Shown here piece after piece: positions 12,262 to 26,895 of a stretch of DNA of 33,571 nt; the stretch's first letter is position 1, and each line of letters opens with the position of its first letter. Source of the stretch: a virus. Where the stretch lies: IMG/VR virus record IMGVR_UViG_3300006793_007074, positions 1-33,571 of that record; one strand, written 5' to 3'. The notes under the pieces were generated by a model, which was not told the DNA's origin, searched no databases, and saw only the letters and a list, made by a program, of their open reading frames with translations. The position numbers and the translations under genes are program-made.

Positions 12262-12293
12262 ACCTTGAACGTAGTTCCCCACCAATATAAACG
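12262..12293 (-). promoter_or_regulatory. TATA promoter, GGTGGGG class, of the clamp-primase operon
   Basis: Minus-strand TTTATATTGGTGGGG begins at 12292. The same core, TATATTGGTGGGG, occurs before the helicase operon at 21733, and TATATGGGTGGGG before the predicted ssDNA-binding protein at 17370. The distance to ATG 12261 is 24-31 nt. Confidence 0.65.
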
Positions 12294-12301
12294 GGCTTGT
12301 G

Positions 12302-12505: not shown

Positions 12506-12774
12506 GCGTACACCCTCTCTAACTCAGCAGCGACGTAAACGTCGGAAACCCCGTCAACCCTGTCCCTGTAAGCCCTCATTACAGCGTTCATGTTGGCTAC
12601 GCGAGTTGCATACCAAGCACCGACTTCCGCGTCCCAGTTGTAAGTAGCACCATTGGTAACGGAAACAGTTACTTCTACGTCCATGTTTTCCATTTGACGT
12701 ACATAGTTTACAGTCATGCCTTGAGGCATAGCGTCCCACATTTGTTGTGTCATTTGTTGTTCTTGGCAGTTCAT
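12502..12774 (-). CDS. Small hypothetical protein under the conserved CCCCTA promoter
   Basis: A 90-residue acidic protein rich in Met, Gln and Val, with no recognised domain and a single Cys. A strand-like stretch DVEVTVSVTNGATYNW is followed by a long helix. ATG 12774 is the first codon, 23-28 nt from the TATA box, and the promoter sequence runs right up to it (TAGAACATG), so the start is well supported. It is one of the five genes led by this promoter; the next gene is coupled to it. Confidence 0.7.
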   Translation of the reverse strand: MNCQEQQMTQQMWDAMPQGMTVNYVRQMENMDVEVTVSVTNGATYNWDAEVGAWYATRVANMNAVMRAYRDRVDGVSDVYVAAELERVYA

Positions 12775-12820
12775 GTTCTAGCGGAGAGGCTAGGGGTATA
12801 TAAGATGTTCGTTATAGGTA
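12775..12820 (-). promoter_or_regulatory. Conserved CCCCTA promoter, copy 1
   Basis: On the minus strand the order is CCTATAA, a 9-10 nt gap, TTATATACCCCTA (TATA core 12797-12802), a short gap, then TAGAACATG. A 22-nt stretch around the TATA box is identical to the copy before the plus-strand gene at 26896. Confidence 0.75.
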
Positions 12821-13102
12821 TTACCAACCATTTTTTGTTGTATATTGCCCTTCGTATGTGTCGGGAGCAAAGCCGTGTCGGTTAGTCCAATACCAATGAT
12901 GGCCGGGAACACATACGTCGCAACGTCCATTTGCGTAGTCCTTGTCTTGATTTCTTTCAACTGCTCTCTTGTCGCTTGGGTGATACGCTAGTCCGCATTC
13001 TGAACAACATTGAGCGGGTCCTTGTATGTCCCTATACATAGGGTGTGCGGGCATGAGCGTGATTAGTGCTTGCTTTTCTGTTAGAGTGAGGCGTTTCTCC
13101 AT
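12821..13102 (-). CDS. Small zinc-finger-like protein under the conserved CCCCTA promoter
   Basis: A 93-residue protein with two pairs of metal ligands, QCCSEC (Cys32, Cys33, Cys36) and RCDVC (Cys61, Cys64), typical of a zinc ribbon, and a His/Trp-rich segment after them (GHHWYWTNRHG). The N-terminal helix TLTEKQALITLM looks like a protein-contact segment. No family recognised. ATG 13102 is fixed by the conserved promoter. It may be a regulator or a small host-interaction protein. Confidence 0.72.
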   Translation of the reverse strand: MEKRLTLTEKQALITLMPAHPMYRDIQGPAQCCSECGLAYHPSDKRAVERNQDKDYANGRCDVCVPGHHWYWTNRHGFAPDTYEGQYTTKNGW

Positions 13103-13145
13103 GTTCTATCGGAGCGGGTAGGGGTATATAACCTTTTACTTATAG
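13103..13145 (-). promoter_or_regulatory. Conserved CCCCTA promoter, copy 2
   Basis: Minus-strand CCTATAAGTAAAA, then GTTATATACCCCTACCC (TATA core 13125-13130), ending ATAGAACATG. Apart from a few bases it is the same over about 46 nt as the copy at 22305-22348, more than 9 kb away in front of an unrelated gene. The upstream box overlaps the stop codon of the gene at 13140. Confidence 0.8.
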
Positions 13146-13478
13146 GTCATACGCATCTGGTAAAGCAAGCCATGTTTTCTGCGGATATTTGGACCTGCCA
13201 TCTACGCTGCTTATTTTTTCAGAACCTACGCACACGAATAGATGAGGTTTCTTTGCCAGATGATTTGACAACCGATTCATTTCGAATGGTTGATTATCGA
13301 GTGCAGCAATTTGACCCGTAGTCAATGGAACACCATCGGGATGAGTTGCACCCGCTTTCATCATAGCATTCCAAAGACGTTTCACATTACGACCATCAGA
13401 CTTGCCTAGGCGACCTTTTCGTCGCTGTCCATATTTACTGCTAGGCACGTATTTGTCGTCTTGTGTTTTATCATTCAT
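13140..13478 (-). CDS. Winged-helix-like DNA-binding protein
   Basis: A 112-residue basic protein. After a Lys/Arg-rich start (SKYGQRRKGRLGKSDGRNVK) comes a likely winged helix-turn-helix: PLTTGQIAALDN, then MNRLSNHLAKKPHLF, then a wing and a final strand (KYPQKTWLALPD). Proteins of this form often act as regulators or DNA-binding helpers. ATG 13478 overlaps the end of the Cas4/RecB-like nuclease gene by 8 nt, so the two are made together. It is a candidate regulator for one of the promoter classes, which is inference. Confidence 0.65.
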   Translation of the reverse strand: MNDKTQDDKYVPSSKYGQRRKGRLGKSDGRNVKRLWNAMMKAGATHPDGVPLTTGQIAALDNQPFEMNRLSNHLAKKPHLFVCVGSEKISSVDGRSKYPQKTWLALPDAYDL

Positions 13479-14667
13479 CTGCTTTCGATTCCTTTTTCTT
13501 TATGTTCATCCTACGCTGTGGCTTAACTATCGCAGTCTTTTTGACTTGGACCGCCACATCTTCGGGTAATACAGGAAGCACTTTTTCAACGGCAGTTTTG
13601 GATAAAGTAACCATCTGGCCGAATACAGCAGGTGGAACAAGTTCTTGAACCATTGACGGAATGTACTGAGTTCTTGTTGTCTCACCCCATACAACAGACC
13701 AATTCTGCGTCTCTATAACGCAGTCATCAACAGGCATCTGCCTATCGAACACGTTGTTCTTTAGGTGAGCGTCGATTGACCTTTGCCTACGGTCTAACAT
13801 CTGCTTAGAGGCTTTGATAGTGGCTAACTCTGTTAGCATCTCATCCAAGTCCTCACCCATAGTAGGGTCGAGTAAATCCCATGCACCCTTCTGCATTAAT
13901 TCCTGTGCCTTTGGACATAAGTCAGCGAATGCACACCACTTACAACCATCACCGATAGTTGGATTCCCTTTCTCAATTTTTGAAATCCATTCGTATTGAG
14001 TTTTCAGCCAGTCTTTGAACGAATCAATTTTCTCATCGGACCATGTAGTTGACACTACGCCGTAGCGTAGCAAGTCAAATGAAAACTTGATTTTCTTTTC
14101 CGGCCACCACTCTCTCGCAACTGCAAGATAGATTCCGGCCTGTATTGAATTATCAGCCTCGGCTTGAGTTATGTCAGCCCTTTGAGTCTTGTAGTCAAGT
14201 AATTCAATCGTCCCATCCCTGTGTTCCAAGATGGCATCAATAAAACCGAATACTGGTGTTCCGTTTGATAATTTGTAAGGACTTCGATGTGTTCCGAATC
14301 CTCTTTCAGTGTCGATGATTCTTACTGGTTGACGACCCCTTCGGTCGAACCAACGGGTCAGCATACGTTTGCCATCTTCATAGAATTGGAAATCGACTTC
14401 TGAGATTGAGTTTTCTTTCTCATAATATTCCATAAGACGGTCGAATGTTAGTTTGCCTGTCTTACCATCTTCATCGGGCTTACGCCAATGCTCTAGTGCA
14501 TTGTGAACATTCGTTCCGACTCTAGCCGCTTGACTAGAATCCCTGTGGTTCGCTTTTGCCTTAAGCGTTATTTCATCATCAGACTTGGGGTCATAATGAT
14601 ACTCATACTGTTGTGTGCAGTTCTTCGCCATTTTTAGTCTACTGGCCGATAAGTAGGGTACTTTCAT
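13471..14667 (-). CDS. Cas4/RecB-family PD-(D/E)XK exonuclease with predicted Fe-S cluster
   Basis: A 398-residue protein. Near the start is LSASRLKMAKNC (Cys17), then VGTNVHNALEHW, then the core GFIDAIL, ELLDYKTQ and the later QAGIYLAVA, which together form the PD-(D/E)XK nuclease site. A group CKWCAFADLC in the second half gives three more cysteines; with Cys17 this is the four-Cys layout that holds a 4Fe-4S cluster in Cas4 and AddB. The family resects DNA ends. An extra 150 or so residues after the Cys group end in a basic tail. ATG 14667 was chosen over TTG 14685 because a TATA box (14692-14697) sits 25-30 nt before it. It probably works with the RecA-like ATPase upstream. Confidence 0.88.
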   Translation of the reverse strand: MKVPYLSASRLKMAKNCTQQYEYHYDPKSDDEITLKAKANHRDSSQAARVGTNVHNALEHWRKPDEDGKTGKLTFDRLMEYYEKENSISEVDFQFYEDGKRMLTRWFDRRGRQPVRIIDTERGFGTHRSPYKLSNGTPVFGFIDAILEHRDGTIELLDYKTQRADITQAEADNSIQAGIYLAVAREWWPEKKIKFSFDLLRYGVVSTTWSDEKIDSFKDWLKTQYEWISKIEKGNPTIGDGCKWCAFADLCPKAQELMQKGAWDLLDPTMGEDLDEMLTELATIKASKQMLDRRQRSIDAHLKNNVFDRQMPVDDCVIETQNWSVVWGETTRTQYIPSMVQELVPPAVFGQMVTLSKTAVEKVLPVLPEDVAVQVKKTAIVKPQRRMNIKKKESKADE

Positions 14668-14700
14668 AATGAAAGCGTGTCTCAAGTGTCGTATAAATTA
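14668..14700 (-). promoter_or_regulatory. TATA promoter of the nuclease gene
   Basis: Minus-strand TAATTTATAC with the core TTTATA at 14692-14697, 25-30 nt before ATG 14667. It lacks both the CCCCTA and the GGTGGGG elements of the other two promoter groups. Confidence 0.5.
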
Positions 14701-14710
14701 AACGGCTTAT

Positions 14711-15283
14711 TTATTGCCAACGGGGGCCTTCTATCCATCCTACTAAGGACTTGCGGTGTCCACTGGTAATAGGGGTTACAAAGTGTTCATGATAGGAAGG
14801 GAACACTATGATTGACCCCTTCTTTGCTAGGTCTATTTGAGCAGGTGAAGCGGTGTGAGAGAATCCTAATTCTCCCCCTTCGTAATCCTCTGGGTCGGAT
14901 AATTGAATGACTATGCTTAACTTCCTGTGCATACCATCTTGTCTGTTCCAGTCGATGTCATGGTGTGTGTGGTAGTGGTGTCCTACATCAGCATACTCTG
15001 TAAATTGTAGCGGTGGCAATGAGGTAACAGAGACACCAAAATGTTGGTTTGCTGCCATTGCATATTCCCATATTGTGTTGTGTAATTCTTTGTAGACATC
15101 ATCATTCGGGACCCATCTAATATCGGTCTTTCTATGACCGTCATTCTCATCGTCTCCGTCATCTCCAGTCCTAAAGGTTGATGCTTTTTGGACTGGTAGT
15201 TTAACACACTTCTCGACCCATCCATCAATTGTTTCAGATGGAATAGCCTCAGACCACATTAGCCATGCGGGGTGTTTCATCAT
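14711..15283 (-). CDS. 2OG-Fe(II) oxygenase, prolyl-4-hydroxylase-like
   Basis: A 190-residue protein of the P4H type. The iron ligands are H107 and D109 (in HTHHDIDW) and H167 (in FPSYHEHFVTPI); Arg177 in GHRKSLVGW is the 2-oxoglutarate-binding residue, and the EGGELGF turn before the second half is also typical. Such enzymes hydroxylate proline in proteins, or other targets in viral and bacterial members. The start ATG 15283 follows the TGA of the RecA-like ATPase with no gap, so it is made with the replication genes. The giant collagen-like fibre in this genome is an obvious possible substrate, but the operon position argues equally for a protein or nucleic-acid target in replication. Confidence 0.9.
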   Translation of the reverse strand: MMKHPAWLMWSEAIPSETIDGWVEKCVKLPVQKASTFRTGDDGDDENDGHRKTDIRWVPNDDVYKELHNTIWEYAMAANQHFGVSVTSLPPLQFTEYADVGHHYHTHHDIDWNRQDGMHRKLSIVIQLSDPEDYEGGELGFSHTASPAQIDLAKKGSIIVFPSYHEHFVTPITSGHRKSLVGWIEGPRWQ

Positions 15284-16180
15284 TCAATTCATCCCCTGTT
15301 TTTTAGCAGCGTTCCAGAACCTTTCGGGTGTTGGGTTGTCTATTCTAAATGGTTTACAAGCACGTGATTTCTTTACGTGTGCCGTGTGCCTAACTTGAGT
15401 CTCTCCGCCTTTGGTTCTCTGTTGCTGAGATAATTCGATAATCCAATCAAAGAGAGGGTCGGTTTGGTCTGGACGACCTGCTGCGGAAACGACTTGTTTT
15501 TCGTTTGCAGTTCCGTAATCTTGGGTGTACTGTCTAAGTAATACCGTAGATATGAAATGATAGTTATACAACTCTCCACCGATTTTTAATCTCTCATATG
15601 GTTGGAAAAATAATTTGTTAATCACTTTGTAAGAGTGCATTTGACCTTCGGCAAAAGCAGGTAGTGTTTTCTTACCTTCTGCAACTGCTTGTTGTTGTCG
15701 TGCTAGTAACAATTCTCCTTCGGATTTACCATGTACTTCTTGAGAATAATAGTCCCGGCATGATAGATAGTATGCACCTTCATTTTCCATAACCATGACA
15801 CGAACACCGTCTGGATATTCAGCAGCATGTTGTCTATGTAAATCAATGAATGCTAATACCATATCATTGACTTCTTGGGGGTTACGACATACCTTACGGT
15901 ATAGGCGAGAACGAAGAGGTTTAGGTAGAATATCTTCACGTGCAACTAAGTCGGCTTGGCCTTCTAAATCGCAATCAATAATCGTCATGAGACACTCAGA
16001 CGGGTCTCTTCCTTCACTATGATGTGCGAAGTGTGTCAAGGCAAAGGTGGACTTACCCGCTCCACTGAAACCTTGTAGTTTCATATGTCGTGGGCGAATC
16101 TTAACCATTGAATCTCCTGTATCACACGATGCAATCAAATTAGCGTAGGCTTCGGTTTTCTTCTTTGTTGACTTTGCCAT
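15284..16180 (-). CDS. RecA-like P-loop ATPase, Sak4/AAA_24-type
   Basis: A 298-residue ATPase with Walker A GFSGAGKST (residues 37-45) and a Walker-B-like strand MTIIDCD near 65-71. The size and layout fit the phage nucleotide-binding proteins grouped as AAA_24, some of which (Sak4) act in single-strand annealing recombination. The neighbours support this: a predicted ssDNA-binding protein just upstream and an end-resecting nuclease downstream. ATG 16180 is preceded by GGAGAG at good spacing; GTG 16201 is less likely. A role in DNA packaging or another motor is not excluded. Confidence 0.78.
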   Translation of the reverse strand: MAKSTKKKTEAYANLIASCDTGDSMVKIRPRHMKLQGFSGAGKSTFALTHFAHHSEGRDPSECLMTIIDCDLEGQADLVAREDILPKPLRSRLYRKVCRNPQEVNDMVLAFIDLHRQHAAEYPDGVRVMVMENEGAYYLSCRDYYSQEVHGKSEGELLLARQQQAVAEGKKTLPAFAEGQMHSYKVINKLFFQPYERLKIGGELYNYHFISTVLLRQYTQDYGTANEKQVVSAAGRPDQTDPLFDWIIELSQQQRTKGGETQVRHTAHVKKSRACKPFRIDNPTPERFWNAAKKQGMN

Positions 16181-16215
16181 AATAATCTCTCCGTTCTCCA
16201 CCTAATTAAATCCGA

Positions 16216-17370
16216 TTATTCCCAATCGTCCCAATCGTCATCTGTCGACGGGGCTTCGTGGGATTTATCAGAACCCTCAGCAGTTTCCGTTTCAGATTCC
16301 GCCTCATTTGAGCCGTCTGTTGCGGTCTCTTCAACGGTTTCTTCAACTGGTGAGTCTTGTGTTTCTTCGTCATCGTCGTCAGCAAAATAATCTGCTGCGT
16401 CGTCTGCTCCATCGTCCCCTGCTACTGCTTCGGGTACTTCGGGCTTTGGTGGTTCAACAACCACTAGGCCGACTGCGATTTCTAGGTTCGCGGATAGTCC
16501 ATATTCACCATTCACTTTGGTTGTGATAAGTGCTAGGATTCTTGAATATCTACCATAGCGAGATGCAATATCGGGTGTAGTAATACAGTTGAGCATAAGG
16601 TTTTCACCGCTCTCGATTGCATCCATAGTCATAGTTGATTCGTCCTTTAGTAAGACTTTTCCGAATTGATTTCCAGTCCTTGAAGTCTGGACCCCTGCAT
16701 ATGATACAGTTGCTTCAACTAGGCGGTAGTCTCTAGGTGTTCTTGAGATGTCGTCCTCTAATTCTGCTATGTCTGTAACGTCATACAAGTTTCGTAGAAC
16801 GTCCTCTGCGGGTGAATGGTCGTATTCTTCTTCATTGAACGCTGTTAAGCCTGTCAATGGTCTTAGGTCTAGCATTTCAGCGTCTAGGTTTCTGCATGAT
16901 ACAGCAGCCTTCCATGAGCCTCTTACAAGGTCATCTGCGATTGCTGCGTCGTCATCCCATAGAGACATGCTGAACATTGCTGCTTCCATAGTTGCGTCTC
17001 CATCTTCTATAACGGCTTGACCGTAGATGAAACAAACTGGGCGTGGATTTCCTTTTGCGATTCCGACTGTTCGGTGAGCAACTTCCCATACGTCCATATG
17101 AGCAGTGTACGATTTTTGACGTAGGATATTAGACAAATCAGTAAGGACACAATCAGTTACGAATCCTTGAGCGGCAGGTGATTTCATTCCACCTAATGCT
17201 TGAATTGTTTCACGGAGATTCGGGTCGTTTGCTTTTCTTGAGAAAAGGTCAACGACTGGTGAGTCGTCCACGAAAATACCGTTCTGAACACCCCTATCTA
17301 TGTAGGGCTGTAAACGGCTCTGTACGTTCTTTGGCAATTTCTTTGTTTTACTAGCGGTCTTTGACGGCAT
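16216..17370 (-). CDS. Predicted ssDNA-binding protein with acidic tail
   Basis: A 384-residue protein. The first 300 residues are folded and strand-rich in the second half (RLVEATVSYAGVQTS, FGKVLLKDES, ILALITTKVNG), compatible with an OB fold. From about residue 310 the protein is almost pure Asp/Glu with Ser and Thr, ending DDDWDDWE. A disordered acidic C-terminus with an aromatic tip is the hallmark of bacterial and phage SSBs, which use it to recruit partners. Its lead place in an operon with the RecA-like ATPase fits. No family is recognised from sequence alone. ATG 17370 is supported by a TATA box 24-32 nt upstream. Confidence 0.62.
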   Translation of the reverse strand: MPSKTASKTKKLPKNVQSRLQPYIDRGVQNGIFVDDSPVVDLFSRKANDPNLRETIQALGGMKSPAAQGFVTDCVLTDLSNILRQKSYTAHMDVWEVAHRTVGIAKGNPRPVCFIYGQAVIEDGDATMEAAMFSMSLWDDDAAIADDLVRGSWKAAVSCRNLDAEMLDLRPLTGLTAFNEEEYDHSPAEDVLRNLYDVTDIAELEDDISRTPRDYRLVEATVSYAGVQTSRTGNQFGKVLLKDESTMTMDAIESGENLMLNCITTPDIASRYGRYSRILALITTKVNGEYGLSANLEIAVGLVVVEPPKPEVPEAVAGDDGADDAADYFADDDDEETQDSPVEETVEETATDGSNEAESETETAEGSDKSHEAPSTDDDWDDWE

Positions 17371-17402
17371 ATTCAGAGTTAGAAATCCCCACCCATATAA
17401 AG
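17371..17402 (-). promoter_or_regulatory. TATA promoter, GGTGGGG class, of the ssDNA-binding protein operon
   Basis: Minus-strand CTTTATATGGGTGGGG, box at 17394-17402, the same design as before the clamp and helicase operons. Distance to ATG 17370 is 24-32 nt. Confidence 0.6.
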
Positions 17403-17409
17403 AGCGTCA

Positions 17410-19365
17410 TCATTCCTCTAAGTCCTCTAGGTGTGATTCCATAAGAGCGTCCCATAGAGTATCATTATCAACGTCTGCTGTTTTCATAGTAGTCGCTTTC
17501 ATCTCCGCTCTCATTTCTCTTTTCGCTTCTAACTTTTCAGTAGCGGTTGATTCCCAACTGTCATCAAACCATGCCGAGCCAGAAAATAATCTATCTCTAT
17601 GTTCTGATGTTCCGACTATCTTCCATAACAGATTTCCTTTGGTTGATGTTCTGAAATAATTTGGTAAGAATAAACTTCTCCACACTTCAGATTCTTCTTT
17701 CGTTTTACAACCGATGCTACGGAGAATCTTACCTTCATTCTTTGTAAGAGCGCGAATCGCATTTGCTCGTTCTGATGTTCCAAGCACATCTGAAAAGTCG
17801 GTGATTACATTTCTTAGATTATCTCGAACCGCCTCTATGAATAATGGTGTTAGTGCATATGTATCTAGTAGTCCTTCTCTCGACTTAACTATCTTGTACG
17901 TCTTGCGTCCACCACCACGTCCACCACCACGATTGGCAACTTCAATGAGACCCGCATCTTCTAATGTAGGCAAATGCTTCTCCTTGATTTGAGATTTGGA
18001 AACCGAGAATGCGTGAATGTTTAACCACTGTTGAATAGCATCTATTGTAAGTCTGCGTTTTGAATCAGCCATTATCTGCATCTGTTGAAATGTATTCCAC
18101 GCATCGTCCGGTACGCCAGACAATGAAGCACGAAGAACAATGTCGCATAATAACAAGCCAACAATATTATCCTCGATAGAAGAAAGAATGTATGTGCCAG
18201 TTTTGTCAGTCTGTGTCGGACGTTGTTGACTATGTAGTAACGTAACTGCGTCGATTACTGATAGTACCTTCTTCACATCACGCTGGTGTTGAGCATTTCT
18301 CGATGGGAAAAACTCAGCCAACAAAGGTGCGAAAATATTTCTTACTCTATTCTTTCTAAGGGATAGCATAGATGCTTGTAAAGTATGAATCAACGGATTG
18401 ACTGTGAAAGTTTCGGGTCGAGCCTTCGCTAACAACTGATTTCGAACAACATTCCCAACTTTACTTACAGAGGTTTGAGGTGTCATCAGAAGTTGTCTTG
18501 TGATTTGTTCCTGTTCTTTTGGATTCCTAGTTGTTAGTGTAATGAAAGCAGGTTGGCCTCTGATAATGAAATCTCTAGTCTCAATCTCTCCTGTCATTTC
18601 ATTCTTCATTGGTGTTTTCCAAATGAGTTCCTTATCGTCCCCAGACATGAGAGGTTTCATCCTCTGAATGAATGCAAACGATTCGTCTTTCTCCAAGATG
18701 ATAATACATTTCCCATCTACGTTGACAATGAAGTTCCCATCCTCATCTATCTCGTCATAGTCATACTTCATTGCTTCTCTCGATGCACCCGCTAATACCA
18801 TGCACATAGATTTGGGAAAACCGTTTCTAGCAGTCAGTGTCATGTATGTTTTTCCAGATGCCGATTGACCTATCAATTCAAGATTCAATGGCGAGTCTGT
18901 TTTACAAGATAACATGACAAGGAATGTCAATATCAAGTTAGCATCATCACCGACGAAAGGCATATCTCTTGATTCGTGAAGTATAGTGTTCACCTTGTCT
19001 AGTAGTTGTGTGTCACCCAAGAAATCATTTACATCACTATCTTCAATATCCCCATACAATGACTCTGCCTCTTTCTTTTCAGCAGATACAAACTCTGCTG
19101 CTTCGTATTCTCCATCCTTTAGAATAAGACCCGCCTTGAGTAAGTTGGTTTGGAAATCTTCATCTTTTATCTTACAGTCTTTCGCTAGACGCTTGATACT
19201 GTATTGAGATAGAACATTGACTTTACCTTTGGGTTCGCCATCCAGAGATACAGAGAAGTCCATACGACCCTTTGTCGCAGACAAGAAAGTTAACACTACA
19301 TCATAACCAATCTCTTCGACGTGATATACTGTTGCGTTCTCACTTGACTGTCTTACATGAACCAT
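17410..19365 (-). CDS. AAA+ ATPase, predicted replicative helicase (MCM-like)
   Basis: A 651-residue protein. Walker A is GQSASGKT (166-173) and Walker B is IIILEKDE (221-228). The block from GASREAMKYDYDE through a segment matching SGDDKELIWKTP and a later RNPKEQ is the layout of an MCM-related AAA+ family found in mobile elements. Around 440-500 is a winged helix-turn-helix with a Gly/Arg-rich wing (GGGRGGGRK), again as in MCM proteins. The N-terminal 150 residues have no match. The likely role is unwinding DNA at the virus origin. The ATG at 19365 follows AAGGAGAGAGGG, a good ribosome-binding site. It is the last gene of the XPD-like helicase operon. Confidence 0.72.
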   Translation of the reverse strand: MVHVRQSSENATVYHVEEIGYDVVLTFLSATKGRMDFSVSLDGEPKGKVNVLSQYSIKRLAKDCKIKDEDFQTNLLKAGLILKDGEYEAAEFVSAEKKEAESLYGDIEDSDVNDFLGDTQLLDKVNTILHESRDMPFVGDDANLILTFLVMLSCKTDSPLNLELIGQSASGKTYMTLTARNGFPKSMCMVLAGASREAMKYDYDEIDEDGNFIVNVDGKCIIILEKDESFAFIQRMKPLMSGDDKELIWKTPMKNEMTGEIETRDFIIRGQPAFITLTTRNPKEQEQITRQLLMTPQTSVSKVGNVVRNQLLAKARPETFTVNPLIHTLQASMLSLRKNRVRNIFAPLLAEFFPSRNAQHQRDVKKVLSVIDAVTLLHSQQRPTQTDKTGTYILSSIEDNIVGLLLCDIVLRASLSGVPDDAWNTFQQMQIMADSKRRLTIDAIQQWLNIHAFSVSKSQIKEKHLPTLEDAGLIEVANRGGGRGGGRKTYKIVKSREGLLDTYALTPLFIEAVRDNLRNVITDFSDVLGTSERANAIRALTKNEGKILRSIGCKTKEESEVWRSLFLPNYFRTSTKGNLLWKIVGTSEHRDRLFSGSAWFDDSWESTATEKLEAKREMRAEMKATTMKTADVDNDTLWDALMESHLEDLEE

Positions 19366-19392
19366 ATTCCCTCTCTCCTTATCCTCACCCTC

Positions 19393-19671
19393 TTAAGGTG
19401 TTACATCAGACCGCCATTTCGTCTCCGGTGGAAATTGTGATACTAGAGACCAATATAACCCGCAGTCATTATCTCCACATACAACCACACTATTAGGCCA
19501 CATATTACCCGGTCCAAGAGCCATACAGTCAACCGGACCATCTCTCTTACAGTTAGGACATTCGGGTAGGGTGAACAGTCCTACAACTTCGCATTCACGC
19601 GAAGGTTGACTATCAGTAGAAGGTGCAAGCACTTTGTTCGGTATTGTTCTATTCAATAGCCAACGTGTCAT
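19393..19671 (-). CDS. Small zinc-ribbon-like protein
   Basis: A 92-residue protein with ECPNC (Cys38, Cys41) and VCGDNDC (Cys65, Cys70), a four-Cys set that suits a zinc ribbon; another Cys is at 49. Function unknown. The start ATG 19671 overlaps the previous stop as ATGA, and the ATPase gene follows after about 27 nt. It could be a loader or regulator of one of the two helicases that flank it in the operon, which is a guess from position. Confidence 0.65.
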   Translation of the reverse strand: MTRWLLNRTIPNKVLAPSTDSQPSRECEVVGLFTLPECPNCKRDGPVDCMALGPGNMWPNSVVVCGDNDCGLYWSLVSQFPPETKWRSDVTP

Positions 19672-19997
19672 TCCTCTTCCCCCATTATCATAGATGCTCG
19701 TTTGCTTATGGTAGCATACCTTTGAATGTCCTCACGTGTACTTATCCAGTCCTTATGAGAGTCTACAAGTCTGTCCCAAAACAACTCTCGAAAACCTATC
19801 CATTCCATCCATGCTTTACTCTTGACATAACCATGTTTTTGATACTGTCGATTGACTTTGCTCCAAAGAGCCTCAGCAGATTTGTATAACGGTTCTCCGT
19901 TTTCGTGCATTACAAAACACATTATCGCTCTCTTACTTTTCAACTCTGTTCTGAAATACGGATTGCGTTTTTCAAATATCATCTTCTTCTTCATCAT
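19668..19997 (-). CDS. Hypothetical basic protein
   Basis: A 109-residue, Lys/Arg-rich, mostly helical protein with no recognised domain. It starts MMKKKMIFEKRNP and has an aromatic-rich middle (AWMEWIGFRELFW). The start is ATG 19997, overlapping the helicase TGA as ATGATG; the open frame continues 18 codons further upstream but only as overlap with the helicase gene. Coupled between the XPD-like helicase and the small zinc-ribbon-like protein. Confidence 0.62.
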   Translation of the reverse strand: MMKKKMIFEKRNPYFRTELKSKRAIMCFVMHENGEPLYKSAEALWSKVNRQYQKHGYVKSKAWMEWIGFRELFWDRLVDSHKDWISTREDIQRYATISKRASMIMGEEE

Positions 19998-21733
19998 GTT
20001 ACGTGTCTCCTTAACCAAGTAGGCATAGGTCCGATATTGTTTCTGAACCAAGCCGGAAGCATACCTGCATTCATCCTCTGAAATCTAGCCCACGATGAAT
20101 CCAAGATGAATATTTGTCCCTTGTCTTTTGGTGAACGTACTATTCTACCCGCACCTTGAACGATAGTCAAGGCAGTTTGAAGGTTGTACCATTTCTTACA
20201 AGGAGCAGGGCAAGCGAAAGAACCGCACATGCCATTACTATACTTACTAGGTGGCTCGTATGGACAGTCCTCAGTGCCTTCGTATTTTCTCCGCCACGCA
20301 TGTTCGTCCTCTGCCAATCGCGTCGATATAACAGGGTCTACGACGGGTAAATAGGGTACTTTACACAATACCAACCACTCGGCTAGTTTACCTTTGAAGT
20401 CAAACCCCTCGTTAACATAAGTTGAAATTAAAACTAGGTTGTCTTTTTTACTTGTCATGAAATAATCAATGGCTGAATCTCGACCCTTTGCATCTGAATC
20501 ATGAGTTACAACTCGGTCTCCGTAACCTGCTGCTCTCAAACCTTCAACTATGCCCTTCCTTATGTAATGCGTATGAGGTAGAACAACACCACGCTTGTTC
20601 GGGTATTTTTCCATTATCCCGATTATTGCTTTGACTTGTTTGGGGATAGTCGCATCTCTCTTCGAGTATGACATAGAACCAACGGGGGCATAATGAATGT
20701 TGAAGCAATCTTTGGGGAATGGACTTTCGGTAATGTTGATGTAGAGAGTTTTTTGGTCCTCAAGTCCCATAGAATGAAGGTACGTATCTACGTCAAGTAT
20801 AGTAGCAGACAAGAAGATTCTTTTTCTCGCAACTGTCTCCAACATATCAACTGCATAATCACGAACCCGCACTGGCTTAAACTCAACAAACCTACCGAAT
20901 CTTGTCTTATCCATTTTGACAACCACGTTGTCGGGTTGTTGCAGAAGTGTGAGAATCGTAGTTCCTTTCTCTAAGATACTACGGAACGCCTTTATTTTTA
21001 CATCATCTTCCTCATCCTCGGCTGCCTTGAGGTGCATATCGCAAGACTTCACGAAGTCCTTTACATCATCAAGCCAGTCGGCGGGGTGATAGTGCATTGG
21101 GAAGTTCCATTTTGGACCATGTACTTTTTGCCAATCTTTCTCTGATAGTCTAGTGCCGAGAAGGTCAAGGAGAAATCCTTCCATCCTGTGAGCCTCATCT
21201 ATGATAGCAAAGTCCCTCTGCTCAAATCTAGGGTCGCCCTGTATAACCCTAAACAAATAAGCGGGATTCGATAGGGTGATACGTGCATCGGAAGCGGCAA
21301 ACTTCTGTTCGTAGTAGGGACAGGGGTCAGCCTCTTTCGAATGTGGACACGACCCACCACGCTTCGTCCAACAGGGAGCGCCATCGGCAGTCCCACTCTT
21401 CACCCAACAGGGGAAGTTGGAACGACCCCTCACTTCCTTTACGACATGACCGTAGTCGGCAAGGTACTGAGTCGCGAGGCCGAGGCTTGGTGTCAAGAGG
21501 TAAGCAGACTGAAACTGTGATTGAACGGTCATGGCTATGGCTGATTTCCCTATTCCAGTAGGTGCTTGAATAACTATGTTGTCGAAGTCATCCTTCTTCA
21601 ATGCGTGATAGATAACTGATAACGCTTCATTCTGAAACTTTCTAGGTGAAGGCATTGGGAAATCTGGCTGTATCTCATCCCAAAGATTAGGCAGTTTCGC
21701 TTTAGTTGGTATGTTGATTCTCACGACGGCCAT
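19994..21733 (-). CDS. XPD/Rad3/DinG-type superfamily 2 helicase with Fe-S site
   Basis: A 579-residue helicase. Walker A is APTGIGKS (57-64), and the DEAH box is at 179-182. Between them are four cysteines (109, 121, 129 and 138) spaced like the ligands of the 4Fe-4S domain of XPD. The motif VI region is QGAGRIVRS near the C-terminus. XPD-type enzymes unwind DNA 5' to 3'; in archaea they act in repair and fork restart. The start ATG 21733 sits 24-31 nt after a TATA box. It heads an operon of four: helicase, basic protein, zinc-ribbon-like protein, AAA+ ATPase. In a virus it may serve replication or recombination. Confidence 0.92.
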   Translation of the reverse strand: MAVVRINIPTKAKLPNLWDEIQPDFPMPSPRKFQNEALSVIYHALKKDDFDNIVIQAPTGIGKSAIAMTVQSQFQSAYLLTPSLGLATQYLADYGHVVKEVRGRSNFPCWVKSGTADGAPCWTKRGGSCPHSKEADPCPYYEQKFAASDARITLSNPAYLFRVIQGDPRFEQRDFAIIDEAHRMEGFLLDLLGTRLSEKDWQKVHGPKWNFPMHYHPADWLDDVKDFVKSCDMHLKAAEDEEDDVKIKAFRSILEKGTTILTLLQQPDNVVVKMDKTRFGRFVEFKPVRVRDYAVDMLETVARKRIFLSATILDVDTYLHSMGLEDQKTLYINITESPFPKDCFNIHYAPVGSMSYSKRDATIPKQVKAIIGIMEKYPNKRGVVLPHTHYIRKGIVEGLRAAGYGDRVVTHDSDAKGRDSAIDYFMTSKKDNLVLISTYVNEGFDFKGKLAEWLVLCKVPYLPVVDPVISTRLAEDEHAWRRKYEGTEDCPYEPPSKYSNGMCGSFACPAPCKKWYNLQTALTIVQGAGRIVRSPKDKGQIFILDSSWARFQRMNAGMLPAWFRNNIGPMPTWLRRHVT

Positions 21734-21767
21734 GATGTATCAGATAGACCCCACCAATATAATGAGA
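21734..21767 (-). promoter_or_regulatory. TATA promoter, GGTGGGG class, of the helicase operon
   Basis: Minus-strand CATTATATTGGTGGGG (TATA box at about 21757-21764) before ATG 21733. Because TATA boxes are nearly symmetric, the same box could also fire to the plus strand into the short ORF at 21789. Confidence 0.65.
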
Positions 21768-21788
21768 GTTGTAAGAGGTGCGAAGGAC

Positions 21789-21872
21789 ATGTGCAATTAC
21801 AATGGGAAATGTCACCCCGCCCCGAAGGACACATGCCCCTCGACTTTCATACAAGAGCAACCAGTATGTTGA
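21789..21872 (+). CDS. Possible 27-residue Cys-rich microprotein
   Basis: Between two minus-strand operons a plus-strand frame runs from ATG 21789 to TGA 21872. It encodes 27 residues with four Cys (2, 8, 16, 27) and a CxxxxxC start. A longer in-frame start at ATG 21762 would add nine residues. The TATA box of the helicase operon is about 25-30 nt upstream of ATG 21789 when read on the plus strand. It is too short to trust on coding statistics alone; the even Cys spacing is the main reason to keep it. Confidence 0.3.
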   Translation: MCNYNGKCHPAPKDTCPSTFIQEQPVC

Positions 21873-21920
21873 GGTATAACCTTCGAGGTAATTGAGGGGT
21901 GTTCCCCCACCATTATTAAC

Positions 21921-22304
21921 TCAACGGTCTAACCAGTGGGTTCTGCCGCCCCAATACACATTGAAGCCTTGTTGTTCCAATTCCGAGTATAACTCGTTAG
22001 TTAATTCATTACAGCCACATACGCAGTTTCGACTGTCTGCTGATGTGTTGTGAGGCACTTCAACTTCCAAGTCGTAAACGGTGTCTGGGAAACGGCTTCT
22101 ACCTTGGTTGACCCTGTGGTATGAAGTTCTTGACGTGATTAAGTTTCGTGGGATTCCCGCCCCTGTCAATGGGCGCACTCTGTAAGACCATACACGTACA
22201 GACGTTGTTCCGTATTTTTGGAAATGACAGTCGCCCGCTTCTAAAGTAGGACGGTCCGGTAATTCTCTGATTTGTGTTATTAGTTCTGTGATTCGGTTGC
22301 TCAT
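21921..22304 (-). CDS. Small hypothetical protein under the conserved CCCCTA promoter
   Basis: A 127-residue protein starting MSNRITELITQIRELP, a helix, then a strand-rich basic middle and a CVCGC group near residues 93-97. The end NVYWGGRTHWLDR is Trp-rich. No recognised family. ATG 22304 is fixed by the conserved promoter that reads TAGAACATG at the start. The MSNR opening is shared with the gene at 26797, which has the same promoter type, but the rest is unrelated. Confidence 0.7.
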   Translation of the reverse strand: MSNRITELITQIRELPDRPTLEAGDCHFQKYGTTSVRVWSYRVRPLTGAGIPRNLITSRTSYHRVNQGRSRFPDTVYDLEVEVPHNTSADSRNCVCGCNELTNELYSELEQQGFNVYWGGRTHWLDR

Positions 22305-22348
22305 GTTCTACGGGAAGGGGTAGGGGTATATAACATTTTACTTATAGG
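22305..22348 (-). promoter_or_regulatory. Conserved CCCCTA promoter, copy 3
   Basis: Minus-strand CCTATAAGTAAAA, GTTATATACCCCTACCC (TATA core 22327-22332), then TAGAACATG. It is nearly the same as copy 2 at 13103-13145. Confidence 0.8.
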
Positions 22349-22604
22349 GATTTAATGATGAGTGTTCCCCTAGTGATGTTACACATACACTACTCTTGTA
22401 TATGTGTGCCTGTAAGGGGTATTGGAATTGTATTAATTCTTGTAGAAACATTTCCCCCTACGGGGAAATGGTTCTAATGATGACCCCTTTTGTTCCACAT
22501 AGGATGATTACACTATATACATACAAACCTTTATAAGTAAATACACTACCCCGAATACAGAACAACACCCTTGATAAAGAGGGGTTCTGATTGACTTAGT
22601 TGTT
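22349..22604. other. Hairpin-rich intergenic region
   Basis: No convincing gene lies in these 256 bp, between the 3' end of the baseplate-hub gene and the promoter of the small gene at 22304. It is A/T-rich with several inverted repeats: CATTTCCCC and GGGGAAATG at 22449-22470 (perfect, loop of four); AAGGGGT near 22414-22420 and ACCCCTT near 22482-22488, which would enclose that hairpin; and ACACATA with TATGTGT near 22370-22400. TATA-like words (CTATATA, TTTATAA) occur around 22510-22535. It could be an unannotated RNA, a transcription stop for the hub gene, or an origin of replication. Confidence 0.4.
22449..22470. repeat. Perfect 9-bp hairpin with CTAC loop
   Basis: CATTTCCCC, loop CTAC, GGGGAAATG. 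Four G-C pairs next to the loop should make it stable in either strand's RNA. No long U run follows on either strand, so a bacterial-type terminator is unlikely. Confidence 0.6.
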
Positions 22605-24416
22605 CTACTGCACACTTAATCCCGCAGCCATCCTCATGGTCGCGGCTATATCTGATGGTTGTTTTCCGACTGTTAATGTCATAACAGAATCGTCAGTTGA
22701 AAACTGCCAACCGACTGAGAATAATTCTTGTCGACCTGCTAGTCCCCCATCGACAGATGCGAAGTCCATTATGTCTCCCGCTCTCAAATCGAATCTCTCT
22801 GGCAGCCCTTCTACTATCCATTGACTGTACGCAATTCCTTGTCTCATGAGTATCTGCCTACCAAGAGTTTCAGCGTGTGCAACAGTCGTAACGCCAGTAT
22901 CTTTTACGTACCGATGAACAGGTCTTTCACTTGTCATTGAGACAGTAGCGCTAATATCTAATTCTTCATTTTCAACAGTAACTTTGTTGAAGAAGTCATC
23001 ATCGTTTGTAACTCTCTCAATCATAGTTGGATAAAAGTCGTGAGGAACAGTAGTCTTTGGAACGCGACCTGCTACGTAAGGGGTAACATTAGAATCGTGA
23101 AGTTCTTTCTTCTGGGCTACGTGAACGTAACCATAAGCGTCTGCGTAGATTTGATATTGTACCGGACCTGAGTTCACAAAACTCAGCAGAGTTTGAATTG
23201 CTGCTAATCTCGTCTTACCCTTAAACTTCAAACCAGTTGGTAAATTAAATCGGAAGTCAGAGATGATGCGGGCGATAGGTGGTTTGTAACTTGATTCAGC
23301 AACTATGGATTTAATCATAGTAGAAATATTACCATTGGCGTGAGCAGGTTCTTCCGTGATATATTCATTTGTCAAGAAGCCCAGTGCATCAAGACAAGTT
23401 AATCTAATATTGGTTGATGTTTCTTCTATCCCTGCTACATAACCCGTGAATATCAATGGTGGATTAGACCACATACGTGGGGCTAAGTAAACTTGAATCG
23501 TTTCTCCGACTTCTGCTATGCCGCTCCTTCGTCCCGCAACAGATGATATGTTGATTGTTAATTGTCGTGGTGTGTTCAAGTTATCCTTTGAAGAAATCGA
23601 CTTAACACCATGTAAGGGTCTACTTCCATTAACTAATACAACAGGTGTCTTTGGTGTTGCCTCATCTTCTGCTATCTGCCCGTATATTGTTCGACCCAAG
23701 ACCTGCCTTGACCTAACGAAGAAAACTTTGTGAGGCCAGTTGTTTCTTAGATTTCCTAGTTGAAATTGTCTTGGTCTATTCATCCATTGTAGACCTTCTG
23801 GATTCCAACCGCCATTGCTGTAACCCAATGTTCCTAGATTGAATGTTGGGTTTGGTAAAACTGATGTTGGATAATTACCTTCGGTCGGTCCTGTTGTAAA
23901 TGCAAAACCGCCACGTGGTCCACCGCCACGTCTGCTCGTCAAATCGTACTGGTCTGGGAATATCGACGCAGATGCGTAGAGATAACCGAAGCCATCGGTT
24001 GCCCCGGTGTACCCGGTGTGAAGATGAGGGTCGAATGGTTTTGGTGATGCGAGATTAGTATAACAGTAAGTTGTTGGTCCGCTTGTCGTCCATTCATTTG
24101 AAGAAGCCGTCATCGTTTTTGGGTGTGGGATTAAACCAAGACCGAAGTCCTGTGGGTAGTGAGCAGGTCTGTTAATATCTTCTTTGTCAGCGACGGTCAT
24201 AGCGTGTTCCGCTACTGTATCTCTTGCTCTATAATTCAACCACTGAACCTCAGCCCATGTTCGAGAAACGAACCGAGCAATCGCTGTCCTCGGTCTGCGT
24301 GGGTCTTGCCCTAATTCCTCGACGAAATCTTTCAAATTATCTGGCGGGGTAATGACAAACTCATCGTCATTAGGGTCTCTAACGATGCGAACATACCGCT
24401 CGGCCTCATCATCCAT
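22605..24416 (-). CDS. Tail baseplate hub-like protein
   Basis: A 603-residue structural protein. From about residue 270 the layout is that of baseplate hub proteins (Mu gpP, phage D / XkdQ and T4 gp27 relatives): strand-rich domains with GETIQVYLAP, GYVAGIEET, LTCLDALGFL and a last domain RFDLRAGDIMDFASVDGGL followed by a closing VMTLTVGKQ strand. The first 250 residues are less familiar and rich in Gly, Pro and Tyr. The hub sits at the tail tip where the tube, fibres and any cell-wall enzyme join. ATG 24416 has a TATA-like TAAATAA (24439-24445) 23-30 nt before it, in the divergent region shared with GroES. Confidence 0.72.
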   Translation of the reverse strand: MDDEAERYVRIVRDPNDDEFVITPPDNLKDFVEELGQDPRRPRTAIARFVSRTWAEVQWLNYRARDTVAEHAMTVADKEDINRPAHYPQDFGLGLIPHPKTMTASSNEWTTSGPTTYCYTNLASPKPFDPHLHTGYTGATDGFGYLYASASIFPDQYDLTSRRGGGPRGGFAFTTGPTEGNYPTSVLPNPTFNLGTLGYSNGGWNPEGLQWMNRPRQFQLGNLRNNWPHKVFFVRSRQVLGRTIYGQIAEDEATPKTPVVLVNGSRPLHGVKSISSKDNLNTPRQLTINISSVAGRRSGIAEVGETIQVYLAPRMWSNPPLIFTGYVAGIEETSTNIRLTCLDALGFLTNEYITEEPAHANGNISTMIKSIVAESSYKPPIARIISDFRFNLPTGLKFKGKTRLAAIQTLLSFVNSGPVQYQIYADAYGYVHVAQKKELHDSNVTPYVAGRVPKTTVPHDFYPTMIERVTNDDDFFNKVTVENEELDISATVSMTSERPVHRYVKDTGVTTVAHAETLGRQILMRQGIAYSQWIVEGLPERFDLRAGDIMDFASVDGGLAGRQELFSVGWQFSTDDSVMTLTVGKQPSDIAATMRMAAGLSVQ

Positions 24417-24483
24417 GCTTATAGACGGTAAAGTAAAGTTATTTACCGTATGCTTAATATTACACTTAGGTCTCGAACCGCTT
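24417..24483. promoter_or_regulatory. Divergent promoter of hub and GroES genes with palindrome
   Basis: Two TATA boxes face away from each other. Minus-strand TAAATAA (24439-24445) serves the hub gene, and plus-strand TTAATATTA (24455-24463) serves GroES. Between and over them lies an inverted repeat, ACGGTAAA (24425-24432) and TTTACCGT (24442-24449), with a 9-bp spacer. The right arm covers the hub TATA box, so a dimeric repressor bound here could shut the hub promoter and perhaps GroES too. Confidence 0.55.
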
Positions 24484-24750
24484 GTGAGAGTTTTAACACC
24501 GACGAAAGGATATGCCCTAGTTAGACGATGGGTCCCAGAACAAACAACAACAAGTGGAATATTATTACAAGACGAAGCAGCATCATATGGCTTCGGTGTG
24601 ATAGAAGCAATAACACCTTATCATGAAGAATCTAACTATAAAATAGGCGATATTGTTTTGATAGAGAAAGACTCTGGTACATCATTACAGTGGAACGGAA
24701 ATGTTTGCTTGATGGTTAGAACCGTGAGCATAATAGGGGTGGTCGAATGA
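24484..24750 (+). CDS. groES: GroES-type co-chaperonin
   Basis: An 88-residue protein. It starts at GTG 24484 (MRVLTPTKGYALVRR), about 22-29 nt after a TATA box, which matches the length of GroES. An upstream ATG at 24414 is in frame but lies in the promoter and overlaps the hub start. The mobile loop that docks on GroEL is at EQTTTSGILLQD (hydrophobic ILL), followed by GFGVIEAI, KIGDIVLIEKDS and the final strand VCLMVRTVSIIGVVE, all as in GroES. Its stop overlaps the GroEL start as ATGA. Co-chaperonin caps the GroEL chamber during folding, in viruses mostly of capsid protein. Confidence 0.88.
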   Translation: MRVLTPTKGYALVRRWVPEQTTTSGILLQDEAASYGFGVIEAITPYHEESNYKIGDIVLIEKDSGTSLQWNGNVCLMVRTVSIIGVVE

Positions 24751-26321
24751 AGCGTTCAATCTATGGAGAAGAAGCAAGAGAAGCATTGATGAGAGGAATA
24801 AACGAAGTTGCTAACTCAGTCAAGCCAACATTAGGACCTGCGGCTCGAACAGTTATACTAGAGAGACAGTATGGTTCTCCTATTGTAATCAATGATGGTG
24901 TTACTATTGCTAAAGATATTGATATGCAAGAGGACCCGTATGCCAATCTGGGTGTGCGTCTGATTCAAGAAGCAGCAAGCAAGGCTCAAGATAATGCAGG
25001 GGATGGAACAACTACCGCCTCTATCTTAACTCAATCATTATGCAATAAAGGATTAGTTGAAATGAAAACAGGTCGTAACCCAATACACATCAAGAAAGGT
25101 TTTGATAAAGCGGTTCAGATAGCAGTCAAGTCAATTGAAGATGCGGCTACCGATGTTGACGACACGTCTTTGATTCATGTAGCAACAATAGCAGCCAATA
25201 ACGATGAAGCAATCGGCTCTCTGATTTCACAAGCATTTCAAACAGTAGGAAGAGATGGAATTGTCTCGATTGAAGAATCGAATGGTCTCGACACAACACT
25301 GGAAATTGTTGACGGACTTGAGTTTACTAAGGGGCTACTTAGTTCACATTTTATTACAGACCCGGAGAAACAAGAAACGTCGATGAAGAAACCTTTGATT
25401 TTAGTAACCGACGAAACCATTCGAACCGCTCAAGAAATTGTTGATGTTCTAAATTATGCAGTAGAAATGAAAAGACCGCTTTTGATTATCGCTACCAAGA
25501 TGGAAGGTGAGGCTTTGGCTACGCTCGCCCTTAATGCTTCGCGTGGTGTTTTAGAAGTTGCAGCAGTAGAAGCACCTTCATTTGGTAATTCACGTGAAGA
25601 AATACTCACCGATATTGCTACGGTTGTAGGAGCAGTTCCGATTTTCTCCAGTAAGGGAATGTCGACTCAAAGGAACGGAATAGAATCTTTAGGTGGTGCT
25701 GCTTCAATCTCATGTACGATGAAGAAAACAACAATAGTTGGCGGTCGTGGTACAGAGGGAGATATTAACAAAAGACAACAAGCACTTATTTCTCAAGCGA
25801 ATGATGCTGAAACTGATTGGGAAGCAGAGGCATTGAAAGCAAGAGCAGGTAAGATTTCCGGCGGTGTTGCAGTATTACACATCGGTGGTAAAACCGAAGC
25901 AGAGATGAAAGAAAGAATCGCACGTGTGGATGATTCATTGAACGCTACTAGAGCCGCTTTACAAGAAGGTATAGTGGTAGGTGGCTCTATCATGTATCTA
26001 CGTGCTAGAGATGAGATACTAGATGCCTCAGACGACCATGAAGGCGACGAATGGCTAGGTATGATGATGGTTCATGATGCACTAGCAGAGCCGTTCCATC
26101 AGTTGTGTTTTAACGCAGGTGTTGATAGTGATGAAGCACTAGAACAGGTCATAGAAATGAATGACCCTAACTACGGTCTAAACGCTAAGACTTTAGAGTT
26201 TGGCGACCTTATAGAACAGGGTGTTATTGACCCTGCCAAGGTTGTCAAAAACTCACTGGAGACAGCCGCTTCGATTGCAGGGTTAGTCCTAACAACCGAA
26301 GTGCTTGTCGCAGAAGTCTAA
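24747..26321 (+). CDS. groEL: GroEL-type group I chaperonin
   Basis: A 524-residue chaperonin, clearly group I (bacterial type), not the archaeal thermosome. Residues TLGP (28-31) and DGTTT (86-90) form the ATP site, and the whole length aligns in order with GroEL, from the first helix to the closing LTTEVLVAEV. The Gly-Gly-Met tail of many bacterial GroELs is missing. With GroES it is in the only long plus-strand operon here. Viruses use their own chaperonin to fold large or unusual capsid and tail proteins. The 3' end overlaps the end of the convergent gene at 26318 by 4 nt. A possible bacterial origin is inference from family type. Confidence 0.97.
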   Translation: MKRSIYGEEAREALMRGINEVANSVKPTLGPAARTVILERQYGSPIVINDGVTIAKDIDMQEDPYANLGVRLIQEAASKAQDNAGDGTTTASILTQSLCNKGLVEMKTGRNPIHIKKGFDKAVQIAVKSIEDAATDVDDTSLIHVATIAANNDEAIGSLISQAFQTVGRDGIVSIEESNGLDTTLEIVDGLEFTKGLLSSHFITDPEKQETSMKKPLILVTDETIRTAQEIVDVLNYAVEMKRPLLIIATKMEGEALATLALNASRGVLEVAAVEAPSFGNSREEILTDIATVVGAVPIFSSKGMSTQRNGIESLGGAASISCTMKKTTIVGGRGTEGDINKRQQALISQANDAETDWEAEALKARAGKISGGVAVLHIGGKTEAEMKERIARVDDSLNATRAALQEGIVVGGSIMYLRARDEILDASDDHEGDEWLGMMMVHDALAEPFHQLCFNAGVDSDEALEQVIEMNDPNYGLNAKTLEFGDLIEQGVIDPAKVVKNSLETAASIAGLVLTTEVLVAEV

Positions 26322-26797
26322 GACATAAGTGAAGCCAATTCTTGCACACTTATTGTTCGGCCTTCATACGGTGGGTTAGCGATAGGGTCGAACACCCAAG
26401 CGTCCCCGTCTCGATAGTCGCCAGTCCAACCACACCCTTCGATGTGGCAGAGAGTTGATACTACGAATTGATGCCATACGTTGAAACTACCAGACCATTT
26501 TTCACCTTCATGCTCTCTGTGATTCCAGACAACAGTTTCGTTAGGGTTAGTGTGGTCGGTGCATACCCAAGATGCAGGGCGGCAGTCGCACCAGTCAGCC
26601 CAGTGTTCTAAGACAGTCATACCGCAGAAGTAAACATGGTCGTCTCTCACTTCGGCTCTTTCAGAGCGTCCAAAATGCTCTAATGATATATTCAATTCTC
26701 TAACGATGTATTCAGAATAAGTTTCTCCCTCATTCCTATTCCAACGTGCTTGTTGTCTTTCGTTCCAGTATTCTCGTAGGCTGTTTCGGTTGCTCAT
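26318..26797 (-). CDS. Hypothetical Cys/His-rich protein under the conserved CCCCTA-type promoter
   Basis: A 159-residue acidic protein starting MSNRNSLREYW, rich in Trp, His, Cys and Glu. Possible metal ligands are Cys58, Cys70, Cys72, Cys79, His82, His93, His96, Cys117, His118 and Cys122, so one or two zinc sites are likely. It ends VQELASLMS. No family recognised. ATG 26797 is placed by the conserved promoter; its copy here has TTATATACC but differs after that (AATG in place of CCTA). It is convergent with GroEL and overlaps its stop. Confidence 0.72.
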   Translation of the reverse strand: MSNRNSLREYWNERQQARWNRNEGETYSEYIVRELNISLEHFGRSERAEVRDDHVYFCGMTVLEHWADWCDCRPASWVCTDHTNPNETVVWNHREHEGEKWSGSFNVWHQFVVSTLCHIEGCGWTGDYRDGDAWVFDPIANPPYEGRTISVQELASLMS

Positions 26798-26842
26798 GTT
26801 CTATCCGAGTGTGCATTGGTATATAAGGGTATCTGTTATACA
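26798..26842 (-). promoter_or_regulatory. Conserved promoter, copy 4 (variant)
   Basis: Minus-strand TGTATAACAG, a gap, TTATATACCAATG (TATA 26820-26826), then GGATAGAACATG. It keeps the TATA box, upstream box and start, but loses the CCCCTA stretch. Confidence 0.65.
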
Positions 26843-26859
26843 GTTTCACAAACACAAAG

Positions 26860-26895
26860 CAAACATCTTATATACCCCTAGCCCTACCGCAGTAC
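26860..26895 (+). promoter_or_regulatory. Conserved CCCCTA promoter, copy 5 (plus strand)
   Basis: Plus-strand CATCTTATATACCCCTAGCC with TATA at 26868-26874, ending GTACATG. It shares a 22-nt identical stretch with copy 1 at 12775-12820, on the other strand. It lies back-to-back with copy 4, so the two small genes here fire divergently. Confidence 0.75.

Follow-up and report, generated by a model that had tools for sequence, protein, structure and literature searches.

The window analysed here, the whole IMG/VR record IMGVR_UViG_3300006793_007074 (33,571 bp, of the linear class, without end repeats), contains five copies of a long conserved promoter. We read them as strong archaeal promoters of the TBP/TFB type that form one regulatory class (class A), are leaderless and serve exchangeable accessory units; the probability of this reading as a whole is put at roughly 0.72. 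The leaderless geometry, the presence of three promoter classes, the spread to distant relatives and the gain and loss of genes at promoter boundaries are points new to this analysis, which followed up a sequence-only reading of the same DNA. Relatives of the window are referred to by handles beginning with G or L.

All five TTATATACC sites that the sequence-only reading had placed before small genes, four on the minus strand and one on the plus strand, were recovered (Table 1). The window has no TTATATA other than the five within these promoters, and when matrices built without one copy were scanned over both strands of the window, the five best sites were always the held-out copy and the four used for the matrix. 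The motif had been placed 22-28 nt before an ATG; it is real and its spacing is tighter, as the first T of TTATATACC lies 29 nt from the A of the ATG in every copy except copy 5, where the distance is 28 nt. The 22 identical nt claimed for copies 1 and 5 were confirmed. The description of copies 2 and 3 as matching almost base for base was slightly strong, as 39 of the 46 positions are identical, and copy 4 is an outlier, with 21-26 of 46 positions identical to the other copies. The second TATAA-like box claimed for four of the copies has the form CCTATAAS in copies 1-3, and appears as a shifted TGTATAAC in copy 4 and as CACAAAGC in copy 5; also a CACAAAAC form of this A-rich box was present in relatives. 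With one mismatch allowed, the ninemer was found nine times in the window against 7.9 expected, thus no more commonly than by chance; what makes the motif significant is the length of the match and its constant distance from the ATG.

A matrix of 12 sites of the group, made without TAGAAC and the ATG, was scanned over 59 related contigs (841 kb) and compared with five Markov shuffles. The scan gave 68 matches above the best of the shuffles, 32 of them distinct, and 28 of the distinct sites have the start of an open reading frame (ORF) 28-29 nt downstream, the other four having no ORF there. The sequence-only reading would have been refuted by a motif as frequent at random in coding regions as upstream of genes, and this was not the case. 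Also among the unique TTATATACC sites of the close group, 26 of 31 are followed by an ATG and an ORF at 28-29 nt. The core reaches further: viruses with about 75% identical terminase carry TTATATAGG(G/T)G with the same 29-nt spacing and flanks of their own, and an ORF starts 29 nt from 16 of the 22 TTATATAGG sites in these viruses and from 8 of 12 in the close group. The core is thus common to the wider group and the flanks are specific to each lineage, as in crenarchaeal viruses. The motif in its strict form is virus-specific: it was found in 13 viral contigs of one group, whereas 257 Gb of cellular genomes yielded three exact matches, a number that chance would give. These three, in two archaeal metagenome-assembled genomes and one of Pelagibacterales, were scattered, and the pattern was abandoned as a means of finding the host; a looser pattern of upstream box plus TATA recovered mostly unrelated AT-rich phages among the viral contigs and was likewise dropped.

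Counted back from the ATG, the promoter consists of an upstream A-rich box of the form YATATAAS or CACAAAAS some 15 nt ahead of the TATA, an A-rich stretch at -35 to -32 followed by TG or GG at -31/-30 (12 sites), an invariant TTATATA at -29 to -23 followed by CC (or GG) and CCYA, CCC at -16 to -14, CTCCG near -12 to -8, and TAGAAC at -6 to -1, the last often joined with the ATG as ATGAGCAACC. With one site taken from each of 15 gene families, the information content amounted to 47.5 bits over 46 nt, a value inflated by related families and the small sample; it agrees with the earlier remark that far more sequence is shared than a TATA box needs, and marks a conserved promoter class. Orthologous promoters alternate between TTATATACCCC and TTATATAGGGG. 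A related observation is a block switch from CCCC to GGGG right after TTATATA in orthologous promoters with the rest conserved, seen before the 260-aa gene in G008/G009 as compared with L063/L069/L070 and before the CQDCGG gene in G009 as compared with G008.

The centre of an archaeal TATA box is expected some 26 nt upstream of the point where transcription starts, and a bacterial -10 box near -10. If the start is taken as the ATG, TTATATA occupies the archaeal position in nearly all sites, and as it is centred at -26, transcription would begin at or next to the ATG and the mRNA is predicted to be leaderless. TTATATA would then be the TATA box and the A-rich stretch before it, purine- and A-rich as is required, the B recognition element (BRE), so that the geometry fits an archaeal BRE/TATA promoter yielding leaderless mRNA. 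Leaderless mRNAs are common in some archaea; with TATA/BRE they are the major mode in Haloferax, and in Haloferax volcanii they make up 72% of protein-coding transcripts (PMC4983044). A bacterial sigma-70 reading was rejected, because its pattern was rarer than in shuffles (16 sites versus 27.4) and a TATA at -26 has the wrong geometry for it.

The promoters of this virus group fell into three classes by module: class A, the motif described above; class B, before replication-region genes; and class C, before structural genes, classes B and C being assigned by simple patterns and inspection. Class B, found in the window and in G008, combines a weaker TATA with a GGTG.G downstream of it, its spacing is close to that of class A, and it precedes the window ATGs 12261, 17370 and 21733, that at 16180 (recognised by eye) and the clamp loader gene of G008. 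Class C, before the portal, major tail-like protein, head-tail and other genes of G008, has a weak TATA followed by CC, for example GTTAATACCC or GTAAAAACCC. Class A genes are dispersed over both the replication and the structural regions, and in the close group the class would serve dispersed accessory genes and not the hallmark replication or virion genes. The upstream box, CC/GG, CCC, CTCCG and TAGAAC are the parts that distinguish class A from the other two, and they probably either are bound by a regulator of this class or adjust promoter strength and start. It could be argued that the motif is nothing but the host's strongest generic TATA/BRE/initiator consensus, shaped by the preferences of TBP, TFB and RNA polymerase without any regulator of the class, since much of the information sits in TATA, BRE and start-proximal positions and since hardly any site in any relative lacks a CC or GG behind TTATATA, as a basal preference would have it. 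This we consider unlikely: promoters that keep the spacing but differ clearly in sequence stand before other transcribed genes of this virus, unrelated promoters share 56% of their positions outside the TATA core, and in the cellular genomes the strict pattern was no more frequent than expected by chance.

The promoter and its gene form one unit that is gained or lost whole, a feature that the sequence-only reading missed, as it did the two other promoter classes. Compared with the window, G001, G006, G007, G008 and G009 lack the copy 2 gene and one promoter; their flanking alignments overlap by 46-48 bp, which is exactly the promoter, and their single promoter, orthologous to copy 1 in G008/G009/G001/G006, matches copy 2 in its upstream context and is followed by the copy 1 gene. 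Since the copy 2 gene is absent from all relatives that span the place, gain is favoured. At a second place, two units for Cys-rich proteins of 33 and 67 aa stand in tandem in G002 and G009, and G008, G004 and L015 have one unit; this event involves 150 bp, with a 59-bp overlap at the promoter and start. The third event concerns the divergent unit of promoter 5 (176 bp), whose junction is without a repeat. Two of the three events thus have the structure that would be expected of recombination between promoter repeats: neighbouring promoters are near-repeats of 46-59 bp, and recombination between them would add or delete a unit cleanly.

Outside the TATA core, non-orthologous promoters of one genome shared 55.7% of positions and those of different genomes 56.4% (permutation p 0.87); orthologous promoters shared 80%. 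Recent copying or homogenisation would raise the similarity within genomes, and as it is not raised, shared function, or functional constraint, appears to explain the likeness of the promoters best, with recombination at them probably opportunistic. That the promoters were copied recently as mobile cassettes or by gene conversion, in the manner of the promoter early stem-loops (PeSLs) of T4 phages, the sequence beyond the core having no function, would agree with the nearly identical tandem promoters of G009/G002 and with unit junctions lying within promoters; it is nevertheless very improbable, as it must account for the missing within-genome excess and for the contrast of 80% with 56%, by which most promoters are old and stay put. 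We give almost no credence to the motif being a repeat with a non-transcriptional role, that is, a recombination or packaging signal containing a TATA by chance. The promoters do serve as the breakpoints of two of the unit events, but the fixed 28-29 nt to the start codon, the occurrence in both orientations and the start-proximal conservation would be hard to account for if transcription or translation played no part.

The genes behind the shared promoter are indeed unrelated, belonging to about 15 gene families in the close group. Copies 2, 3, 4 and 5 each appear to serve a single gene, and copy 1 has an overlapping second one. At least four units had been said to encode Cys/His-rich proteins, which is true when second genes are counted; the copy 1 gene itself encodes one Cys. 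Roughly half of the class A families in the close group have paired CxxC and the others none, and one is a DUF6011 protein. Small size or Cys enrichment was rejected as a defining trait, neither being significant in G008 (83 kb; p = 0.28 and 0.10) or in the window. No relative of the copy 2 protein was found in IMG/VR, and the AlphaFold2 models of the copy 3 and copy 4 proteins had mean predicted local distance difference test scores (pLDDT) of 52 and 57, too low for a structure search. The sequence-only reading's specific factor, perhaps viral, is at most a proposal: nine related records, several of which are fragmentary, contained no recognised virus-encoded TFB, a factor of the TFIIB type.

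Several results weigh against the proposed reading. Searches of Pfam, PHROGs and NCBIfam gave no informative match, and no anti-defence family was matched. The five genes of the window are small as had been noted, and the class is wider, its families in the close group ranging from 33 aa to a gene of 260 aa and the G version of the promoter standing before genes of 725-753 aa in distant relatives. Some class A promoters precede no ORF, only a single contig has the 328-bp unit, and with the repeat-free junction at promoter 5, recombination at promoters is not the sole route by which units come and go.

The closest parallel is with viruses of the Sulfolobales. The early genes of Sulfolobus islandicus rod-shaped virus 2 (SIRV2), including known anti-CRISPR genes, have in common a long regulatory sequence whose BRE/TATA core is strong, and on this basis 354 genes of viruses of the Sulfolobales and related hosts were predicted to act against defence (Bhoobalan-Chitty et al., PMC11065993). 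Both there and here a strong TATA/BRE promoter with extra sequence is common to several genes of one virus; in the parts consulted, SIRV2 and other viruses have many small unrelated genes behind the same BRE/TATA core, and the flanks are virus-specific, the core being common between viruses and the flanks differing as between the close and distant relatives here. The Sulfolobales system is crenarchaeal, and Caudoviricetes and Euryarchaeota are not mentioned in the searched text of PMC11065993; according to the same text, early expression and anti-CRISPR/antitoxin activity were tested and a regulator, Aca8, was proposed, in contrast to the present evidence from sequence alone, and gain and loss of cassettes at promoters, seen here, is not described in that text. 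By analogy with these crenarchaeal viruses, class A genes are most likely early and partly anti-defence genes. That the module both expresses early anti-defence genes and acts as a recombination joint for swapping them is a tentative and rather doubtful extension.

In the haloarchaeal Halogranum tailed virus 1 (HGTV-1), many ORFs stand behind a motif of TATA plus inverted repeat, which has been likened to PeSLs (PMC3950731). It resembles the present virus as a tailed archaeal virus with many ORFs behind one TATA-containing motif and with suggested shuffling (PMC3950731); it differs in the inverted repeat, none being seen by eye in the coding copies here (no systematic test was made), and in that shuffling was there suggested by the PeSL analogy, while junctions were observed here. 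PeSLs of T4-type phages are, by the short accounts in PMC4503421 and PMC3950731 (which cite Arbiol 2010 and Comeau 2014), promoter-bearing repeats between small variable genes that mediate shuffling. Like them, the present promoter sits where genes are gained, lost and shuffled, as in the three unit events; a PeSL, as described there, combines a bacterial early promoter with a stem-loop, and since no terminator-like stem-loop was found next to copies 1, 2, 4 and 5, the promoter was rejected as a PeSL. By analogy, the present case may work like SIRV2-type regulation, and like HGTV-1 in gene exchange. Bacteriophage morons are small, autonomously expressed genes between conserved genes, usually with a promoter and terminator from elsewhere. 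The units are like morons in being small self-expressed inserted genes, and differ in that they repeatedly use one promoter and showed no terminator.

The window is a portion of a tailed virus genome, of which near relatives reach 82.8 kb (G008). The relatives encode terminase, portal, HK97-type capsid protein, family B DNA polymerase (PolB) and RFC-like clamp loader, the polymerase, seen together with the clamp loader in G008, being nearest to those of haloarchaeal tailed viruses. The window itself encodes an ERCC4/HHH nuclease, a PD-(D/E)XK nuclease, a DEAD/Helicase_C_2 helicase, GroES and GroEL, and gave a weak primase-polymerase match; its G+C is 45% and its genes lie largely on a single strand. 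The phage collection held no near match to the window and no relative of the helicase. Aoguangviridae of marine archaea have a gene set of GroEL/GroES, PolB, clamp loader and primase (PMC10768690), and this set was also found here, with PolB and clamp loader in G008 and the primase match weak. Aoguangviridae and magroviruses, compared by published description, are alike in being marine archaeal tailed viruses of similar size with these genes, and differ in G+C (31.5%) and in the mostly one-strand genes here (PMC10768690). PolB nearest to haloarchaeal viruses, the RFC-like clamp loader and GroEL/GroES as in Aoguangviridae point to an archaeal virus, and from this gene set the host is very probably a marine archaeon, and probably Poseidoniales-like.

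Some further features were observed. The GroES and GroEL genes (window 24352-26321, plus strand) lie on the strand opposite to most other genes. A 1912-aa collagen-like protein with many G-P-T/G-P-P repeats, probably a tail fibre, is encoded at 2603-8341 (minus strand), and its gene is highly variable in relatives, with patches of 72-83% DNA identity compared with about 90% elsewhere. G008 has similar, non-identical sequence and genes at both ends (1-2000 and about 80800-82791; L029, L032, L033), which suggests that the genome is almost complete and terminally redundant, or else that a variant from the population lies at the join. Directly before the ATG of three genes, a further common leader was seen, GCCTCTCGG.AGGTCTGAGGTA.. 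(L032:17221, 18946 and 19545, minus strand; G008 77221, 78946 and 79545), possibly another regulatory class. Strong promoters broadly like these but without an ORF, in which [TC]TATATACC or TTATAAACC is followed by CCCATC.C, lie on the strand opposite to the genes and close to one genome end, often with an A run and a hairpin within about 100 nt that would terminate a convergent gene. They contain imperfect inverted repeats and might give rise to short non-coding RNAs; an Rfam search of the ORF-less copies gave no match, and the folding of three of them gave z between -1.6 and +0.5, with no clear structured RNA.

Table 1. Coordinates of promoters, genes and units in the window and of ORF-less promoters in relatives.
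Feature	Position	Strand	Remarks
Promoter copy 1	12775..12820	-	TTATATACC at 12803-12795; upstream box, BRE-like stretch, C-rich tract, TAGAAC
Promoter copy 2	13103..13148	-	TTATATACC at 13131-13123
Promoter copy 3	22305..22350	-	TTATATACC at 22333-22325
Promoter copy 4	26798..26843	-	TTATATACC at 26826-26818; divergent from copy 5
Promoter copy 5	26851..26895	+	TTATATACC at 26868-26876
Copy 1 gene	12502..12774	-	90 aa, no family match, conserved in relatives
Copy 1 unit, second gene	12302..12505	-	67 aa, overlaps first gene; CGH...H...CEYC
Copy 2 gene	12821..13102	-	93 aa, CxxC...CxxC, zinc-finger-like
Copy 3 gene	21921..22304	-	127 aa, CxCxC motif, conserved in relatives
Copy 4 gene	26318..26797	-	159 aa, Cys/His-rich, conserved in relatives
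Copy 5 gene	26896..27033	+	45 aa, two CxxC pairs (CxxC...CxxC), zinc-ribbon-like
328-bp promoter-plus-gene unit	12772..13100	-	missing in G001, G006, G007, G008, G009
Promoter 5 unit	26852..27029	+	in window, L007, L018; missing in L009, G001, G007, G009, G008
Class B promoter TTTATATTGGTGGGG	12262..12295	-	before replication-region gene
Class B promoter TTTATATGGGTGGGG	17371..17404	-	
Class B promoter ATTATATTGGTGGGG	21734..21767	-	before helicase gene
ORF-less promoters	L032:18659, 19040, 19639	+	G008 78659, 79040, 79639
ORF-less promoters	L040:6862, 6421	-	G007
ORF-less promoters	L110:11163, 11845, 14098, 14265		G014
ORF-less promoters	L113:18211, 19120		G016

Marine archaeal viruses are abundant, none of this group has been cultured, and most of their genes are without known function. 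The three classes with their predicted leaderless starts are, as far as the literature found shows, the first testable promoter map for this virus group. The accessory genes behind the shared promoter may be exchangeable and possibly directed against host defence, and the promoter would then offer a handle on them from sequence alone, the gain and loss of units at promoters being a route by which such genes come and go. If the module does express early anti-defence genes and also acts as a joint for their exchange, a scan for it would list the anti-defence genes of these viruses.

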